Shown here one piece after another: positions 81 to 61,993 of a stretch of DNA of 64,000 nt. The stretch is from Nitrosomonadaceae bacterium. GTDB taxonomy: Bacteria; Pseudomonadota; Gammaproteobacteria; Burkholderiales; Nitrosomonadaceae. The stretch lies in contig CAKKRD010000010.1 of assembly GCA_919902515.1 (NCBI GenBank), positions 1-64,000 on the forward strand, in the 5' to 3' direction. A model generated the notes under the pieces. The model saw nothing but the letters and a program-made list of their open reading frames with translations, did not search any database and was not told where the DNA came from. Every line of letters begins with the position of its first letter. Position 1 is the first letter of the stretch. The position numbers and the translations under genes are program-made.

Positions 81-815
81 TTATTTAACATCGCGGGTAC
101 CTACCATTGAAGAAAAAAGCTGAAGAATTTCAACTTTTGTTCGTCCACCACTTATTACACGCAAAAAGTTGTCAAGCTTGAACACCACATACTTCGCTGA
201 GCGTGGGTTTAATAATATTCCTTCAGACCATTCTGCGCGATAATCTTCCACTGATGCAGCAAAACTGAGCAACCAATACATAACTACCTGTCGATAGTCT
301 GGGGCTGAAAAATTGCCACTACTACACTTTACCTCTATAAGGGTTGGGCCGATTTCAAAATCACCATGCCCTGACGAAATCCACTGAAAACCTGGTACGG
401 CAGGAGTTGCCCTAATTGGATGGTTACGTTCTGCGGCCAATTCCTTAATCATTGTTGAGATGTTTCTGCCGGTCATTTCGGCAACCTGTTTGTCAAGCTC
501 GGTAAGCTCACTCGGTACTTGCGCGTCGAAGTAACGTTTCTGCCGAGCGATAGCAACCCGTAAGCAATCATCCCAGTCAATATTATTTCCCGCTAGCAGT
601 TTTTCACCAACGGTGAAACCGAGTTCAAAGAGCATAGCTTTATTAAGCTTACTCTCCTGCACCATCTCAATAGGAATAGGTTCGCACAGCGATAGCTGTG
701 CTGTTCGGTTGAAATGTGCGACGACACTGGGCGTTAGCTGCGGAAATAATGAGTCGAAAACGCCTGGGATGTTGCGGGCGACTGTTCTGGGGTCATTCGC
801 CGGATTGCGCGTCAT
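81..815 (-). CDS. PD-(D/E)XK nuclease-like protein paired with the upstream reverse transcriptase
   Basis: Translation contains GHGDFEIGPTLIEVKCSSGNF...DYRQVVMYWLL, a GD-x(n)-(I)EVK...Q arrangement typical of PD-(D/E)XK nucleases. Start placed at ATG 815 rather than ORF start 866 because AGGAG lies 7 nt upstream (AGGAGTGGTGCG-ATG on the minus strand). Overlaps the RT gene end by 23 bp. Confidence 0.65.
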   Translation of the reverse strand: MTRNPANDPRTVARNIPGVFDSLFPQLTPSVVAHFNRTAQLSLCEPIPIEMVQESKLNKAMLFELGFTVGEKLLAGNNIDWDDCLRVAIARQKRYFDAQVPSELTELDKQVAEMTGRNISTMIKELAAERNHPIRATPAVPGFQWISSGHGDFEIGPTLIEVKCSSGNFSAPDYRQVVMYWLLSFAASVEDYRAEWSEGILLNPRSAKYVVFKLDNFLRVISGGRTKVEILQLFSSMVGTRDVK

Positions 816-2436
816 CGCACCACTCCTGATAAATCGAAGCATAACTAGTGTCACCTTGGCGCTCAATCCCGAGTCTCCATGATTGACCTAGGCTTGGTCT
901 AATCTGCCGTTTGAACCCATCACCCTGATCGCCAAAAGCGGATGCCGAAAGCCACACAATGCGCTGGCACTCGGGACTAAGTTCGTTCCATCTATTTCGA
1001 AGGAAGGTGAAAGCATCTCTGTCTTTCCACTGTCGCCAACAATCAATGCAAGACCTCCTGACTGTATCGGAACGAGTAGTACTGTAAATATTTTGGACGA
1101 AGGCCGATCTTTGAGTTGTTCGCGCGAACCTCAGCGTTCGAAGATAATGGAGAAGACCTGCTTCTGCCTGTAACAGGTGTGCCGAATGCTCCGGGATAAG
1201 ATCTAAAAGTTGATCGAGTTCTGCAAAGATACTGCTGTATTTTTCAGAAGAGCGAAGATTTGCAATTCCTCGCATGATGGTTGACCAAGATGCGCGGAAA
1301 GCGTGAAGGTTGCCTTGGCTGAGGAGCGTGGACGCTAGTTGAATGGCTACATTAGGCTCCTGTAGTTTTAGAGTTCGCCCTATCTGCGTCACTAAGAAGG
1401 TATCAGGAAGGGCTTTCTCAAGTTCACGGTTGAGAAGTCTATGGACTTGAAGGCTCTCGACGGTTTGTTTCAGTGACTCGTAATCTTCGACTGATGTATC
1501 TGAGTAAGGATCAAAGCGCAGGTCAATCTCTCTAAGTTTCCCAGCTTCGTCATCATTGCTGCCAAGTTGAGCCGTTACGTAGTCCGAGTAATGCTTCGAT
1601 GTAAGCATTACTGTCTTTGTCTTATTCAGCGTAAGTCCGTAATCGGCGAGTGTGTGGGAAAGAAAGGCAAGTGCCTTGTAGGCGTCAGCATGAGAATTCG
1701 CTATCAAAACATAGTCATCGACATACCTATGCCATCGAATTCTGGCTACTGTCATTCGATGATCAACTAAATTGAGGAATAGCTCAGCAAGAATTCGAGA
1801 GCACTGCCCCCCGACCGGGAGGCCAAATGACCTGCCAGATGAGAACTTGCTAAGGAGGGCATTCACCTGATTGCCAATACGTCCGTTGTCGGGAAACAGG
1901 TCGTCTATGAAGTTCTCAATATGGTGATGTGAAATGTGTTCGTAGAAACTTGAAATGTCGGTTTGAACAATGATCGTTTCGGCGCCTGATACCTTGGCAT
2001 CGGCAACAGTTTTTTCACGGAACGCTTTCCACGAAGATGATCTATCGAACAACTCGTTACCGCCGTTGAGCAGGAAGCGGTAAGAATGAACCTGACCATC
2101 ACGATTATTTTCTAGCGCTTCGGCAATTGCTACGCCGAGGCCGTTGAAGTAGATGTTCCAGAATGGATGAATCTTGGTTACAACGCGAAAGCCTGTCGGC
2201 CCTGTTGGCGCTAGAAGTCGTTCGCTGAAAATGCTGAGTTCGGATATTTTTCGTGAGCTATTTTGTTCACTATCGCTTTGCAATTGCTCGAAGAAAGCGA
2301 ACGCCACGCGTGCAAGCTCAATCTGCTTATGCGAAATAAACTGTGTGTCGATATCAAACGGAAGTGTGTCGTTGTCGCCATGTGCGCTGATGTCGGCAGA
2401 TGCTCGCAGGAAATGATCAAGTGTAACTTCGGGCAT
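793..2436 (-). CDS. Reverse transcriptase of the non-retroelement/defence (DRT/UG or Abi-like) kind with long C-terminal helical extension
   Basis: 547 aa; RT motifs QTDISSFYEHI, GLPVGGQCSRILAELFLNLVD, RWHRYVDDYVLIA, YGLTLNKTKT; about 250 aa C-terminal extension with no intron maturase/HNH signature. Confidence 0.85.
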   Translation of the reverse strand: MPEVTLDHFLRASADISAHGDNDTLPFDIDTQFISHKQIELARVAFAFFEQLQSDSEQNSSRKISELSIFSERLLAPTGPTGFRVVTKIHPFWNIYFNGLGVAIAEALENNRDGQVHSYRFLLNGGNELFDRSSSWKAFREKTVADAKVSGAETIIVQTDISSFYEHISHHHIENFIDDLFPDNGRIGNQVNALLSKFSSGRSFGLPVGGQCSRILAELFLNLVDHRMTVARIRWHRYVDDYVLIANSHADAYKALAFLSHTLADYGLTLNKTKTVMLTSKHYSDYVTAQLGSNDDEAGKLREIDLRFDPYSDTSVEDYESLKQTVESLQVHRLLNRELEKALPDTFLVTQIGRTLKLQEPNVAIQLASTLLSQGNLHAFRASWSTIMRGIANLRSSEKYSSIFAELDQLLDLIPEHSAHLLQAEAGLLHYLRTLRFARTTQRSAFVQNIYSTTRSDTVRRSCIDCWRQWKDRDAFTFLRNRWNELSPECQRIVWLSASAFGDQGDGFKRQIRPSLGQSWRLGIERQGDTSYASIYQEWCDDAQSGE

Positions 2437-2656
2437 TTTTTCCCTTTAGCTATAACATTTGGTTTGGTAATCAAAAGGGCCAGGGTCGGATTGAATACAG
2501 GATAGGGAATCCAACTGCACGCACCAAAGTGCCCTCGCCTTAAGTGCCGCTGGCAAACACCATGCTACGCTCATTTTTATCTTCCTATCCTGAGAAAAGC
2601 TGTAGTCTGCGGTGAGAATGAGTCTGAACTCCTGCCCGGCTGCGCCCGCTCCCCCG

Positions 2657-5600
2657 TCACTCGCCACTCTCCCATTCCCGCCACCCCTTTAGCAGCGGAA
2701 AATACAATCCCAATTTCACCGGCCGCTCGTCGATCCTGCGCATGAGTGCAGCGTAGCGGTCGAGCTGGGCGCGGTAGCGCTGCTGCTCGCGATCGAGGAA
2801 GCCTTCCACATCGGTGCCTTCATGACTGCTGGTTTTGTAGTCCACCACCCAGCGCTGGCCATCTGCATCACGGAAAGTGCGGTCGATCACCAGATTCATC
2901 TGCATGCCATCAATCAGCGCGGTCAGGCGCAGTTCATTCTGTGCATCCTGCTGCGGCCCGAGCAGCCACTGCCCGCGCGTATCGCTGAGCGCATGGGTGA
3001 GCGCCGTTATGACACGCTCGCTGGCCACCTCCATCTCGCCGTCACTGATGCCGCATGCGAGCAGATTGTGTTTGAACGTAGCGCGTAGACTGTTTACCCG
3101 CGCCGCATCCCAGCCTTGCATCTGGTCTGCGGCGATGCGCTGCAGCCAGCGGTGCACCACGCTGCCGGCATGACGCGCGGTTTCGCCCACCCATGAAAAT
3201 TCGATCTGGTCCTGCGCCTGCGTCATGCTCCGTGGTGGACTCCATTCCACCCGCGGCGGCGCGGCGGGCAATGTCCAGCCGGATGCAAGGCGGCGTAGCG
3301 ACTGGTCGACAGAGAATTCTTCTGTTGCGGCTTCTGCTCCCTCCGAAGCAAGCGGGGTATGCGCCAACATTGCCCGTGAGGCAGCCGCAGCGTAATCCGG
3401 TGCAACCACCGGCCAGAGCTTGCCCAGCAAGGATTTCCCGGCAGGCAATCTCGGCTCGATCACGCCATCGCGGTCGGGAACGAGACGGGTACTGCCCAGC
3501 AGGTGCAGGCGCTGCCTGGCACGTGTCGCCGCAACGTAGAGCAGGCGCTGGTCCTCAAAATACTCTTTATCGGCATCCAGCTTCTCCAGCCAGGCATAGA
3601 TGGGATCGCCGTCCGCACCGGTTTCCTGAATCGGTGCCAGCAACAAGTCAGTGCTGTCGTCTTCCCCGCCGCTGGCAAATGTTGCGCGCGGGCGTTCCAT
3701 CCACATGAACAGTTTCTTGTCGTTGCTGCGTGACAGACGACCGAGGCCGGGCACGATCACATGATCAAACTCGAGGCCCTTGGCTTTGTGAATGGTCATG
3801 ATCTGCAGCCTGTCGTCAGCCCCCAGATCGGGCAGCGCATAGAGTCGGGCCAGCCCCTGCTCGAACAGCGCCAGCTCAGGAATGCTACCCGCTTCCTCAT
3901 GCGCTTCCAGATAATCAAAATAGATTTCAGCATCTGCGAGATCGGTCACATCGCCGACACAAGCTGGACCGCCCAGCGCCAGCCATGCTGCTTCGACCAG
4001 CGTGCGCAGCGATGAACGGCAGCGGTTGCCAATGCAATCTCGCAACACTTCCTGTACGCGCTGCAGTCGCGCGCCACCATCGGCGGAAACTGCCCCCATA
4101 CGCGCGTCATCGTTGAGCAGTTCCCACACGGTGCGCTCGCTGCCGTCAAAGGCAGAGGCAGATTGCAATGCGGCCAGCGCATGCAGATCGGCGAGCGTGA
4201 GGCCGCACCACGGCGCGCGCAGAACTGCCAGCCACGCCAGGCGGTCAGCCGGATGCGCCAGCGCACGCGTCAGCGCCAGCAAATCCTGCACCACGGGCCG
4301 GTAGCCGAGGCCTTCGATCTCGATTGCGCGAAAACGCAATCCGGCTGCGTTGAGCCGCGGTACGATTTCGCGCAAGTGGCCACGGTTGCGCACCAGGATT
4401 GCGGTTGTGGCGGACGGATCATCGTGCTGCGCCTGCTTGATGATCTCCACCACTTTCGCCGCTTCGGTCACATGGTCATCATTGAAAAATGCGTGCACAT
4501 TGACTGCCGTGCCGGAAAGTATTGCGTGCGTGGCGACGGATGATGTGTATGGCACCGCACCGGCAGCGATATTTTCCTGTGCCGGCATCACCTGCGCGAA
4601 AGTGGCATTGACCCAGTCGACAATGCCGCGCTGCGAACGGAAATTGGCGCACAGCGCAACCGGCTGCAGCGCGAGGTTGCCGATCCCCGCCGCACGCGCA
4701 CGCAGGAACAATCCAACCTCGGCTTCACGGAAACGGTAGATGGACTGCATCGGGTCGCCGACCACGAACAGGCTACGGCCGTCTCCCGGCTCCCAGCCGG
4801 CAATAAGCTTTGCCACCAGCTCATACTGGCTGATCGAGGTATCCTGAAACTCATCGATCAGCAAATGCCGGATGCGATAATCGAGCGCCAGCGCGAGATC
4901 GGTCGGCGCATCCGGCTCACCCAGCGCGAGCAGCGCGGCCTGCGCGACTTCGGTGAAATCCACTTGGCCGCGTACCTGGAACACGAGCTTGAGCTGACCG
5001 ACGGCGTGCGGCAGCAAGCGGGTGATCGCACCGAGCACCGCCCATTGCATGTCGGTGTAAGCAGACGGCGGCAGGCGGCGCAGGTCATGCAGCGTCTGGC
5101 GCAGCGCATCGTTTTCCTTGAGTACCGCGATCAATGCAAGTGCACGTTCTTTCCATGATTTGGAAATTTCTTTCTCGGCCTTGTTGCTGCCCGGCGGAAA
5201 ACCATTCTTGACATCGTGCTGTCTGCGCCAGTTACCCTCCTTGGTCAGCAGCAAGTCGGCAATACCGCACCAGCGTACGACATCATCATCTGCGCTGCCC
5301 GGCAACGCAGCAAGTTCGTCACACACGCAAAGTGGAGAACTCCTACCGGCAGCAGCCAGGTTGGTGGCGGCATAGCGTGCAAGTTCAATCAACTCGCCTT
5401 GCGCCGGAATGGGATAGATGCCGCACACGCGTTCTAGTGCTTCGCGCCGCGCATTTTTCAGTGCTGCTTCCAGCTCGTCACGGTCTCTGCCGTGGATATG
5501 CCGCAGCCAGTGGTCACGCCGCGCCAGCATGTCGGCCAGCAGCGTTTCGATGCGGGCCACGTCGTTGTCGAGATGCTCGAGCAAGCGCTCGACATCCTGC

Positions 5601-6103
5601 GCCACTGCATCGTCACCTTCAACCAGCTCGATGGTCGCGCGCGCCGCTTCCAGATAGAGTTCGGATGCATCCTCGACACTCTCCGGTTGCGCACCAAACT
5701 TTGATAGCAACGGCATCTGGTGTGTAAGGGCAGCACATAACGAATCGATAGTCTGGATGCGCAGCCGCGCCGGATTCGCCACAATCTGCCAGCCTGCTGC
5801 AGCGTCGCGCTGCAAAGCCGCATGCGCCAGTTCGCGGGTCAGTTGTTCGTGCTCGGTTGCAGGAGTTTTGCCGCCCGGTGCCAGCGCTGCCAGTACCCGT
5901 TCGCGCATCTCCGCCGCAGCCTTGCGGGTAAACGTAATCGCGATGATTTCTTCCGGCGCATCGACACACGCCAGCAGTCTCAGATAACGCTGGATCAGCA
6001 GCCCGGTTTTGCCCGACCCGGCCGGTGCCTGCACGATGAACGACTGCGCCGGATCAATTGCACGGCGGCGCTCGGCGGAATCCGGAATGGGCGTAGCACT
6101 CAT
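2657..6103 (-). CDS. UvrD/AddA-like DNA helicase/exonuclease
   Basis: FIVQAPAGSGKTGLLIQRYL Walker A, AITFTRKAAAEMRERV, LIDEFQDTSISQYEL, C-terminal WVVDYKTSSHEG nuclease motif; start at ATG 6103 overlaps the AddB-like stop by 4 bp. Confidence 0.85.
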   Translation of the reverse strand: MSATPIPDSAERRRAIDPAQSFIVQAPAGSGKTGLLIQRYLRLLACVDAPEEIIAITFTRKAAAEMRERVLAALAPGGKTPATEHEQLTRELAHAALQRDAAAGWQIVANPARLRIQTIDSLCAALTHQMPLLSKFGAQPESVEDASELYLEAARATIELVEGDDAVAQDVERLLEHLDNDVARIETLLADMLARRDHWLRHIHGRDRDELEAALKNARREALERVCGIYPIPAQGELIELARYAATNLAAAGRSSPLCVCDELAALPGSADDDVVRWCGIADLLLTKEGNWRRQHDVKNGFPPGSNKAEKEISKSWKERALALIAVLKENDALRQTLHDLRRLPPSAYTDMQWAVLGAITRLLPHAVGQLKLVFQVRGQVDFTEVAQAALLALGEPDAPTDLALALDYRIRHLLIDEFQDTSISQYELVAKLIAGWEPGDGRSLFVVGDPMQSIYRFREAEVGLFLRARAAGIGNLALQPVALCANFRSQRGIVDWVNATFAQVMPAQENIAAGAVPYTSSVATHAILSGTAVNVHAFFNDDHVTEAAKVVEIIKQAQHDDPSATTAILVRNRGHLREIVPRLNAAGLRFRAIEIEGLGYRPVVQDLLALTRALAHPADRLAWLAVLRAPWCGLTLADLHALAALQSASAFDGSERTVWELLNDDARMGAVSADGGARLQRVQEVLRDCIGNRCRSSLRTLVEAAWLALGGPACVGDVTDLADAEIYFDYLEAHEEAGSIPELALFEQGLARLYALPDLGADDRLQIMTIHKAKGLEFDHVIVPGLGRLSRSNDKKLFMWMERPRATFASGGEDDSTDLLLAPIQETGADGDPIYAWLEKLDADKEYFEDQRLLYVAATRARQRLHLLGSTRLVPDRDGVIEPRLPAGKSLLGKLWPVVAPDYAAAASRAMLAHTPLASEGAEAATEEFSVDQSLRRLASGWTLPAAPPRVEWSPPRSMTQAQDQIEFSWVGETARHAGSVVHRWLQRIAADQMQGWDAARVNSLRATFKHNLLACGISDGEMEVASERVITALTHALSDTRGQWLLGPQQDAQNELRLTALIDGMQMNLVIDRTFRDADGQRWVVDYKTSSHEGTDVEGFLDREQQRYRAQLDRYAALMRRIDERPVKLGLYFPLLKGWREWESGE

Positions 6104-8871
6104 TCCCCCTCCTCCTGCTGGGAAAACGCGCTCTCGCTGCGCTCGTAGATACGGCAGAACGGCTGCACATCGCAATTGCGGCAGGTAAACGGATATTTTT
6201 TGGGGTCGACCTGAGCATCGCCGCTGCGGAAGCTTATGGCAAGGCGGGTGAGATCGGTGCGCCAGGCGGCAACCAGTTCCTCCCACGAACCATGCCGCTC
6301 ACGCTGGCGCGATTCGGAGAAAGCTTTCACCCCAGGTAACAGATCGTTGTCGCGCGCCAGTGCGGTGAATTGCATGGCGCCCAACCTGACCTGGGCAAAG
6401 GCAACCGCTGCGGCATCCAGCTCGGCAGTGACCAGATACAGCGGCAGTTGCGGCTCGTCCGGGCGCTCGCCGAGCATGGCGCCAACCAACGGTGCGCGGG
6501 TCTTGTAATCGATGACGATGCGGCGCCCGTCGGTAAGTTCGTCAACGCGGTCGAGACGGGTGGTCAACGCAAGTCCGCCGATTTCGATACTGCGTTTGTC
6601 TTCGCAGGCGATGACTGTGAAATCGCCGCGCTCTTTGTCTGCATCAAGCCATTCGCGTGCCAGCCGCACCAGACGCCGTTGTTCGATTTCCGCGAAGCGT
6701 CCCGCGAGTGTCGTCGGCCGGTCTTTGCGGATGTGCACAATCGCCTCTGCGGCAGCCTGCCTCAGCATTGCTTCGAGATCATCGCTGCTGATCGCAGCGA
6801 GCGCACGGCTGCTCTTGAGTTTTTTCCACGCCTGTGCGAGCACACGATGCACCAGCGTGCCGCGCTCCCGCGCATCCAGTCCGGTATGCGGGGCCTGCAA
6901 GCTCTGCGCACCGAGCCGGTGCAGCGCCAGCGCACGGAACGGACAGGCTGCATGATCTTTTATCACCGCTGTGCCGCCGCTGATGGCGTTTATCGCTTGA
7001 TCGACCGCAGGCGCTTTATTATCCTCGCTGTGTTCAAGCTGACCGGCGTTGTGGATCAGATCGCGGTGGTTCGCATAAGCGGCTGGTATCGATGTGAGTG
7101 CAGGCTCACTCTCGGCAATGTGCGTGATCAGCGGACTGGGCATGAGTTCCTGGCCGCCGCGGTCAGCGCTGTGCCGTGGATGACTCAGAATGACTTCATC
7201 CGCGCTGCATAGCCAGTCAGCGGTGAGCCGGCGCGCCAGTTCAAGTGATTCAGCGGCAGAACCCTGCGGCAGCTTTGCCGCGCGTTGCAGCTCGATCGGC
7301 AGGAACGGATTCGGGCGCGGTGGCTGCGGCCATACTTCATCGGACAACCCCATTACCCACAGGTGATCGAACTCCATGCCCGCAGCCTCGAACACACCGA
7401 GAATCTGGATGGGAACATCCGCTGTCTCGGGCTGGAACAAGGTTTCCGCCGCCATGCGGCGCAGGCGCGACAGCCCTTCGCTGTAGCCGGTACGCGCTAT
7501 GACGCTGTCAAGTGCGGCGAAGTCGGCGACAACTTCGTGCCATTTTTTCAGGGTCTGGTATTCGGTCGAATCGAGGCTGCGCTCGCCGGGAAAGCCGACA
7601 ATCTGCAGTGCTGCGGAAATGGCTTTGGCCAGCGCTGAGGGCGCCTGTGCGCCGAACAGATTTGCCTTGCGGAATTCAGCGAGCGCGGACAGGCGCTGCA
7701 CGAGCATCGGGCAGCTCATCCCATCGCGCTCAATCAGCGTAAGCAATCGGTCGAGCGTCAGCACCGGTTCGGCACGCTTGCGCAGCTGGGCGTCGAGTCG
7801 TGCGCGGCCGGTCATTTCAGTCTCGCCGCCCGCAATAAACGGCGAGCGCAGCAAGCGGCTCGCACGTTCAAACTCAATCTCCCGTCCGGCCAGTTCGAGT
7901 AGCAGGAATGCGGCGCTGACCAGCGGATATGAGGTCAACGCCATGCCGAGCGAGGTGTTAAACGGCAATGCGCGTTGTGCAGCATCCGGCAACACACACT
8001 GCACGTCCGGTTCCATCACCGCACTGAAAATGCGCATGATCGCACTGCGCCGCCTGGCGAGATCCGGCACAACAATGCCGATACGCGCCGCAGCGTCAGT
8101 CTCGATCCGCGCTCGCGCCCATATTGCCGCATGCTGAATCTCATCGCGGCTGTCGGCGCCTGCGACGCGCTGTACAGTGCCATGATGCCGCCGCAGTTGC
8201 GACTGCGATTGTGCCAGCAGCACTTCGCAACCAGCCGCCTCGAGTTTGCTCAGCAATGCTGCCTGCTGCGGCGTGACAATGTCGAAACCATAGCAGATCA
8301 GGCGCTGCGGTTTTTTTACCGCTGCGTGCTGCCACAATCCGGCTACCAGATCACACAGACGCGCGCTGTCGGTTTGCTGTTTGCGCCCGGTAGCGCGTGC
8401 GTAATGCTGTGACCAATCCTGGAATGCCTTGCTGTCTTCGTTCAGCGGAAAACTTCTGAGCTGCGGAAGAAGCTGCCATGCATGCGCGAACTGCCACGCC
8501 TCGCGCGCAAGCCGTGCAGTTTCCGCAACCGCAAGCAAAGCCGTATCCGCACGACGAATGGCCTCCTCCCACAATGCCTGTTCCTGCGCAGTGGTAAGCA
8601 GAATGGGCAGTCCGGTTGCCTGTCCGGAGTAAAGCACGTCCTCGTAAGCACGTTCGATAAATGCGGGGAATGGCAGGATATCAGCCGTATCCCAGAGACT
8701 GAGTCCCTGAGCGGCCTGGGCAGCATCGAACTCGCGTTTAAGCGCCAGCGCGAGCCGCCGGTTAGGGGTAACGACCGTGCCACCGGCTTTCAGCCCGGCG
8801 GCAAGATGTGCGAAAACATCAGTGGGGGTGAGTTGCGGAAATTTCAGGGTGATGGACATGCGGCGGGACAA
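6100..8871 (-). CDS. AddB-like PD-(D/E)XK nuclease-family protein (probable DNA repair protein)
   Basis: C-terminal IVIDYKTRAPL nuclease motif, Cys set CPFRA...CRNCDVQPFC expected for an AddB-type Fe-S site; coupled to the AddA-like gene. Start may be at 8859 (MSITLKF). Confidence 0.8.
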   Translation of the reverse strand: MSRRMSITLKFPQLTPTDVFAHLAAGLKAGGTVVTPNRRLALALKREFDAAQAAQGLSLWDTADILPFPAFIERAYEDVLYSGQATGLPILLTTAQEQALWEEAIRRADTALLAVAETARLAREAWQFAHAWQLLPQLRSFPLNEDSKAFQDWSQHYARATGRKQQTDSARLCDLVAGLWQHAAVKKPQRLICYGFDIVTPQQAALLSKLEAAGCEVLLAQSQSQLRRHHGTVQRVAGADSRDEIQHAAIWARARIETDAAARIGIVVPDLARRRSAIMRIFSAVMEPDVQCVLPDAAQRALPFNTSLGMALTSYPLVSAAFLLLELAGREIEFERASRLLRSPFIAGGETEMTGRARLDAQLRKRAEPVLTLDRLLTLIERDGMSCPMLVQRLSALAEFRKANLFGAQAPSALAKAISAALQIVGFPGERSLDSTEYQTLKKWHEVVADFAALDSVIARTGYSEGLSRLRRMAAETLFQPETADVPIQILGVFEAAGMEFDHLWVMGLSDEVWPQPPRPNPFLPIELQRAAKLPQGSAAESLELARRLTADWLCSADEVILSHPRHSADRGGQELMPSPLITHIAESEPALTSIPAAYANHRDLIHNAGQLEHSEDNKAPAVDQAINAISGGTAVIKDHAACPFRALALHRLGAQSLQAPHTGLDARERGTLVHRVLAQAWKKLKSSRALAAISSDDLEAMLRQAAAEAIVHIRKDRPTTLAGRFAEIEQRRLVRLAREWLDADKERGDFTVIACEDKRSIEIGGLALTTRLDRVDELTDGRRIVIDYKTRAPLVGAMLGERPDEPQLPLYLVTAELDAAAVAFAQVRLGAMQFTALARDNDLLPGVKAFSESRQRERHGSWEELVAAWRTDLTRLAISFRSGDAQVDPKKYPFTCRNCDVQPFCRIYERSESAFSQQEEGE

Positions 8872-61195: not shown

Positions 61196-61306
61196 TTAAC
61201 AAAAATTTAAGATTCCGGGAACTTGTTCCATGACTCTATCGTCTTATTGACAGACGATGTTTGACTGTCTCCCGCTTCCCCTCCCTGAGCGGGGCCTTAA
61301 TACTTG

Positions 61307-61993
61307 TTAAGGCAGTTTGCCCCCGGTTTTATTCCCCTTTAACCGGGGGTTTTTTATTTCAGGCTTAGCCGTCGGATTTGATTCCAGAGTCAAAGCTGCG
61401 TCCAATTCAAGCCAGCTTCCCAGCACGGTAGTAGCCTCTTCGACACCTTCTTTGGCCAGACTGGAAAAGAGTTGCGTGCTGCATTGTGGATAGCTTTCCT
61501 GCAAAAAAACCTGCACCTCCTTAAGAGTCTTTCTGGCCTGCTGCCGGGTAAGTTTGTCCGCCTTGGTAAGTATCACATGCACCGCTTTCCCGGTTGGCGC
61601 AAACCAATCCAGCATCCGCTGGTCAAGCGGGGTTAAAGGATGACGCACATCCATGATAAGCACCATGCCGTGAAGCGACTCCCTGGCTTGCAGATAGGTG
61701 CTAAGCAGGTGTTCCCAGTGCTGGCGGATTTCCAGCGGCACCTTGGCATAGCCGTAGCCAGGAAGATCGACCAGAAAACGATCATTTCCCAGTTGAAAAA
61801 AGTTGATATGCTGAGTACGCCCCGGTGTCTTGCTGACAAAGGCGAGACGGCCGCGATTGGCCAGGGTGTTGATAACACTCGATTTGCCTGCGTTAGAACG
61901 TCCGGCAAAGGCAATCTCCACTCCGCCGGGCAGCGGCAAATCCCGCAGGTGATTGACGGTGGTGTAGAAAGTCGCGTGTTGAAAAAGAGACAT
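61307..61993 (-). CDS. engB: Ribosome biogenesis GTP-binding protein YihA/YsxC
   Basis: [54 protein letters not shown]. Confidence 0.95.
61320..61355 (+). terminator. Terminator-like hairpin on the plus strand, inside the 3' end of engB (antisense to it)
   Basis: CCCCCGGTT (61320-61328) / AACCGGGGG (61341-61349), 9-bp perfect stem followed by T6 (61350-61355). Confidence 0.6.

Follow-up and report, generated by a model that had tools for sequence, protein, structure and literature searches.

Background

Type 8 of the defence-associated reverse transcriptases (DRT8) is described in reviews as a reverse transcriptase (RT) combined with a PD-(D/E)XK nuclease (PMC12596737, PMC13213688, PMC13314766), and antiphage activity has been reported at the level of the family, for copies other than the one studied here (PMC13213688, PMC13314766). 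The reviews of 2026 establish no mechanism for it (PMC12596737, PMC13213688, PMC13314766), such that DRT8 is among the few types of defence RT without a settled mechanism as of 2026. The class 1 DRTs studied to date synthesize DNA without a nucleic-acid template, some of them self-primed (PMC13174585, PMC9508834). Essential cis-encoded non-coding RNAs (ncRNAs), on the other hand, are reported for DRT2, DRT3, DRT9, and DRT10 (PMC12596737, PMC12632851), and in DRT1 protein-primed DNA is coupled to an effector domain (PMC13275509).

Organization of the locus

The window, i.e., the whole stretch of 64,000 nucleotides that was analysed, opens contig C10 of a Nitrosomonadaceae genome of 1.88 Mb that is 82% complete. 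Two overlapping genes on the minus strand had been proposed in the preliminary description, and both open reading frames were recovered, with an overlap of 23 bp. The features of the locus are as follows (window positions):

1 to 80, no strand assigned: genome repeat that touches the 3' end of the nuclease gene and forms the contig end; near-identical copies start contigs C24 and C17
81 to 815, minus strand: PD-(D/E)XK nuclease (RTasPDDEXK), 244 aa, start codon ATG at 815; identified by PADLOC profile and fold model
823 to 827, minus strand: ribosome-binding site AGGAG of the nuclease gene, within the 3' end of the RT gene; identified by sequence and by the family-conserved overlapping start
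793 to 2436 including the stop codon, minus strand: DRT8 reverse transcriptase, 547 aa; PADLOC Drt8, 501.7 bits
1480 to 1524, minus strand: RT codons 305 to 319, a loop of the form D305...D309-P-Y311-S-D313...Y319; candidate protein-priming or nuclease-contacting segment, the function being proposed
1714 to 1722, minus strand: codons of the catalytic RT residues V239-D240-D241 (YVDD motif), invariant in 52 of 52 RTs
2437 to 2500, minus strand: short leader 5' of the RT gene, the sole non-coding DNA common to close relatives (around 0 to 57 bp)

Concerning the start of the nuclease gene, the reading frame of 261 aa from TTG 866 that had been given previously is replaced here by one of 244 aa from ATG 815, which is the likelier start because the AGGAG motif lies just 5' of it (827 to 823) and because the homologues start at the equivalent position. 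The Shine-Dalgarno sequence itself had been placed correctly inside the 3' end of the RT gene, and the two genes are probably translationally coupled.

As the first 80 bases of the window are a repeat that also opens contigs C24 and C17, the assembly broke at this point; the repeat is likely to be a mobile or repetitive element beside the module. At the other side, the window is homologous to sister genomes of its genus through addA and up to around 2470 to 2500, where the homology ends, which fits the left edge of the DRT8 module. The RT is carried by only one of the nine genomes of the genus that were compared, i.e., by none of the sister genomes. The module directly adjoins addA/addB-like helicase-nuclease genes (2657 to 8871), and since the sister genomes contain different DNA beside these genes, the insertion spot appears to be variable. 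Far from the module, at 61268 to 61357, the window contains an Rfam match to the anti-hemB sRNA (RF02837, 77 bits), which was described from Burkholderia.

Assignment to DRT type 8

The preliminary description had interpreted the pair as an antiphage module of an RT and a PD-(D/E)XK nuclease, the RT of which could not be assigned to a named group. Profile comparison now supplies the name, and the reading agrees with a known system: The RT matches the PADLOC model Drt8 (PDLC03783) with 501.7 bits (E = 7.9e-151) across residues 3 to 541, the next-best PADLOC model, RT_UG22, reaching 102 bits, and the nuclease matches the model RTasPDDEXK (PDLC03797) with 242.6 bits (E = 9.8e-73). Judged from sequence, the pair is a genuine and complete locus of DRT type 8, a system already known. 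The RT does not group with those of group II introns or retrons, either of which would have contradicted the earlier reading, scoring 65.7 bits with the maturase model TIGR04416 (cutoff 300) and 45.6 bits with the retron model NF038233 (cutoff 235). In a Pfam scan of the RT, RVT_1 alone exceeded the cut-off, and neither a maturase nor an HNH domain was detected. Identity of the RT to the collected nuclease-paired relatives ranges from 43 to 93%.

Concerning the older nomenclature, we take DRT8 to be UG7. In PADLOC, Drt8 (PDLC03783) falls between UG5 (PDLC03780) and Drt3b (PDLC03784), and the UG models appear to be numbered alphabetically. Since Drt3b is UG8 (PMC13174585), this position agrees with such an equivalence, and the group named UG7 by Mestre et al. 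2022 is almost certainly the same as DRT8.

Three distant RTs (loci L003, L004, and L005) likewise score 387 to 455 bits with the PADLOC Drt8 model at 17 to 23% identity. All three are found without an RTasPDDEXK partner; downstream of the RT of L005 lies another protein, which matches PD-Lambda-3_A, and the RT of L004 possesses an additional C-terminal region of around 300 aa. The Drt8 model may therefore lump several systems.

Conservation of the gene pair among relatives

Relatives were collected from one genome scan (60 loci, essentially all from Proteobacteria as judged by record title), to which three plasmid copies were added. Whether the adjacency of the two genes recurs had been raised as a check on the earlier reading, and it does so throughout: In all 52 full-length RTs, including that of the window, the nuclease gene follows immediately downstream on the same strand, being intact in 49 and broken in three. 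Intact pairs overlap by 4 to 23 bp, most commonly by 11 bp. The nuclease gene is absent only at contig ends (L041, L050, L058, L059, and L066) or next to a shortened RT (L056, beside a transposase-like gene, L067, and L068). As nuclease-paired RTs served as seeds of the search, the invariant pairing applies to this clade. Taking the PADLOC E-values together with the recurrence in all 52 full-length relatives, the arrangement is far beyond chance.

Distance matrices of RT and nuclease are correlated with r = 0.905, the maximum over 2000 permutations being 0.19. The closest intact pairs, from Candidatus Nitrotoga and other Gallionellaceae, exhibit 90 to 94% protein identity and lie in unrelated flanks; the genes move together between bacteria.

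Several loci are damaged. Stop codons or frameshifts affect the nuclease only, with an intact RT, in L033, L040, and L063, and the RT only, with an intact nuclease, in L044, whereas both genes are broken in L027 and L046, and L056 consists of a truncated RT followed by the transposase-like gene. These loci (three with a broken nuclease versus one with a broken RT) are too few to separate a role of the nuclease as effector from one as brake.

A third conserved gene was not recognized, no recurrent neighbour being present among the 114 flanking proteins scanned, and the alphaproteobacterial relatives possess no conserved upstream gene. Scattered defence genes (SoFic, Lamassu, Mokosh, and Ietan) occur in the flanks. 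Other defence RTs are found nearby in some cases: On the Sphingobium plasmid pTomTYG65a (L008:6001-12159), the DRT8 pair adjoins a convergent, complete DRT1a (RT-nitrilase, 1230 aa), a UG17 (DRT10-type) RT is situated near DRT8 in Aromatoleum (L024:1491-2978), and Abi-P2 near DRT8 in a metagenome-assembled genome of Oceanospirillaceae (L033:3291-4808). Among annotated phages, no close homologue of DRT8 was found.

The reverse transcriptase

The RT contains the motifs QTDISSFYEHI, SFGLPVGGQ, and RYVDD. The catalytic residues are D160, D240, and D241, and D160, Y165, V239, D240, and D241 are invariant in 52 of 52 RTs. The C-terminal extension, estimated earlier at about 250 aa, comprises around 255 aa, is largely helical, and contains no maturase or HNH domain. 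In the structural model (46 sequences, pLDDT 85), a fingers-palm core (around 70 to 290) is followed by a flexible linker (302 to 325) and an alpha-helical repeat domain (331 to 546). The best PDB matches to this model are, in this order, DRT6, Abi-P2, UG15/DRT4, AbiK, and AbiA, which together account for the top 19, DRT9, group II intron RTs, and retrons ranking behind; whole-chain TM-scores are modest (around 0.4 to 0.6). A profile search of PDB sequences gave UG15/DRT4 and Abi-P2 first. With a C-terminal domain of predicted alpha-helical repeats and a matching overall fold, the enzyme would belong to class 1 of the UG/Abi RTs.

Although residues 302 to 325, in the linker, have a pLDDT below 50, D305, D309, Y311, D313, and Y319 are invariant in 52 of 52 RTs. 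The invariant hydroxyl residues T87, Y119, Y165, and S203 fall in the core motifs of the RT, whereas Y311 and Y319 lie outside them, 70 and 78 residues past D241. The serine that has been proven to prime in DRT1, S402, is situated 77 residues past the catalytic DD of that enzyme (PMC13275509). Because of their invariance in a disordered segment, their position outside the core motifs, and this DRT1-like spacing, Y311 and Y319 are proposed as candidate priming residues. Alternatively, the loop might be a docking site for the nuclease. Y311 aligns, albeit weakly, with a tyrosine in the nuclease-less L003 and L005, not in L004, which mildly favours a role of the loop in the RT itself. In AbiK and Abi-P2, priming takes place from a loop at the N-terminus. 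The DRT8 RTs exhibit no invariant tyrosine at this place, such that priming may differ in DRT8 or may use another protein.

The nuclease

The motif series GD...IEVK...Q noted previously is found as GDF...IEVK...RQ...Y, the protein containing GDFEIGPTLIEVK and RQVVMYW. The putative active site is composed of E64, D152, E161-x-K163, and Q176xxxY180. D152, E161, K163, Q176, Y180, and N203-P204-R205 are invariant in 51 of 51 nucleases; at position 64, 50 of them have E and one has D. The PD-(D/E)XK fold that had been predicted is borne out by a model (pLDDT 90) of Cas4/RecB type, which matches best ACE1 (Cas4 family), Dna2, and AdnAB, with modest TM-scores of around 0.4. Neither Pfam nor the PDB sequences yielded a match for this protein, and of the comparisons with the PDB the fold search alone gave matches. 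Among PD-(D/E)XK nucleases, QxxxY is a marker of the RecB/Cas4 branch, and with GxD...ExK, QxxxY, and a predicted Cas4/Dna2-like fold, the DRT8 nuclease probably belongs there. As no cysteine is invariant among the 51 nucleases, an iron-sulphur cluster of the Cas4 type is unlikely.

Search for a cis-encoded RNA

Modules with 87 to 91% DNA identity share both genes, at most around 57 bp 5' of the RT, and a few bases past the nuclease stop codon; outside these limits, on either side, their flanks are unrelated, and no conserved flanking DNA was found. A scan of synonymous sites in both genes was flat (mean observed/expected 1.04, maximum 1.22 at codons 381 to 395), and Rfam gave no match at the DRT8 locus. 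With a conserved block that, among close relatives, consists of the two genes and at most around 57 bp, and with unconstrained synonymous sites, there is no sign of a cis-encoded ncRNA. Placement among the class 2 ncRNA-templated DRTs (DRT2, DRT9, and DRT10), which would call for a conserved cis ncRNA, was considered and rejected, given the divergent flanks and the lack of an Rfam match. An RNA that acts in trans, or that is conserved only in structure, is possible and compatible with the data.

In the alphaproteobacterial loci L007, L032, L034, L035, L039, and L040, an element CACTAGAC is situated around 85 to 95 bp upstream of the RT start, and variants of it occur in L030, L036, and L055; it is absent from the window. 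L035 and L055 are 70% identical across 210 non-coding nucleotides upstream of the RT. The element may be a promoter, an operator, or a short leader RNA.

Proposed mechanism and alternatives

The locus thus combines membership in a known defence family and intact catalytic sites with an obligate overlapping pairing, no visible cis RNA, and the predicted folds described above. The interpretation that we regard as fairly probable is that of a complete DRT8 module in which RNA-independent, protein-primed DNA synthesis gates the co-translated nuclease or is trimmed by it. The RT would oligomerise and, with no RNA as template, synthesize single-stranded DNA from one of its own hydroxyl residues as primer (best Y311 or Y319). 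The RT and its DNA would then restrain the nuclease or serve as its substrate, and a phage cue would alter the RT product and release nuclease activity (abortive infection). The nuclease might accordingly sense, process, or be held by the DNA product; a role as effector is favoured over that of a mere product-trimmer. A stricter version, in which covalent, untemplated DNA primed at Y311 or Y319 directly gates a Cas4/RecB-like effector nuclease as an RNA-free switch of two proteins, is put forward tentatively and is doubtful as it stands. If true, it would amount to a toxin-antitoxin logic based on a nucleic-acid adduct, a polymerase product controlling a separate nuclease.

The nuclease could instead be a brake: the RT would continually produce toxic, random single-stranded DNA, which the nuclease would destroy in healthy cells until a phage single-stranded DNA-binding protein shields it. 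We consider this rather unlikely, even though the RT most resembles DRT4 and DRT6, the nuclease resembles enzymes that process single-stranded DNA ends (Cas4, Dna2, and AdnAB), and the phage protein ORF55 is reported to protect DRT4 single-stranded DNA from exonuclease (PMC13213688): DRT4 itself works without a dedicated nuclease, and that the RT has stayed intact where the nuclease is broken, as in the three loci mentioned above, is unexpected if the RT product is toxic in the absence of the nuclease, although this is a small hint. That the RT copies an unseen RNA, as in DRT2, DRT3a, DRT9, and DRT10, the nuclease processing the cDNA, appears improbable. Several DRTs do operate in this way, DRT9 is also among the fold matches of the RT, and both the upstream element of the alphaproteobacterial relatives and the similarity between L035 and L055 could be read in this sense; however, the conserved flanks end after around 57 bp at 87 to 91% identity, synonymous constraint is lacking, and untemplated class 1 enzymes lead the fold and profile matches. 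Very improbable is a pair without defence function, decaying or fortuitous and left by a mobile element at the contig edge. The adjoining repeat and contig end, the broken copies among the relatives, and the restriction of the RT to one genome of the genus would suit such an origin, but both reading frames are of full length with all catalytic residues kept, and the protein sequences are 90 to 94% identical to those of intact pairs from Nitrotoga and other Gallionellaceae in unrelated flanks.

Comparison with known systems

What is new here are the constraints drawn from the 52 full-length relatives, the DRT8 system itself being already known; the value of the comparison lies in these family-wide constraints on the mechanism rather than in the novelty of the locus. 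They narrow the mechanism by the lack of a detectable cis RNA, the obligate Cas4/RecB-like nuclease, and the two candidate priming tyrosines.

The pair in the window consists of the same two protein families as described DRT8 loci, in the same gene order and with the same overlap, and no difference in kind was found. DRT4 (UG15), DRT6, Abi-P2, and AbiK share with DRT8 an RT with C-terminal helical repeats and a locus in which no ncRNA has been found, the RT being around 13 to 17% identical to theirs in structural alignment. In contrast to DRT8 with its obligate nuclease partner, however, these four are single-gene systems, and the invariant linker loop with its two tyrosines distinguishes DRT8 from all of them. 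DRT2, DRT3, DRT9, and DRT10 represent the opposite case, as they use a cis ncRNA, whereas none was detected at the DRT8 locus. With the nuclease domains of ACE1 of the Cas4 family, Dna2, and AdnAB/RecB, the DRT8 nuclease shares the PD-(D/E)XK fold and the D..ExK..QxxxY residues; it differs from them as a stand-alone protein of 244 aa that has an N-terminal helical region of its own and no helicase. Like DRT8, DRT1 (RT-nitrilase) joins an RT with a second enzyme, its effector, which is under the control of protein-primed DNA (PMC13275509). This effector, however, is a fused nitrilase in a class 3 system of another architecture, whereas the nuclease of DRT8 is a separate protein.
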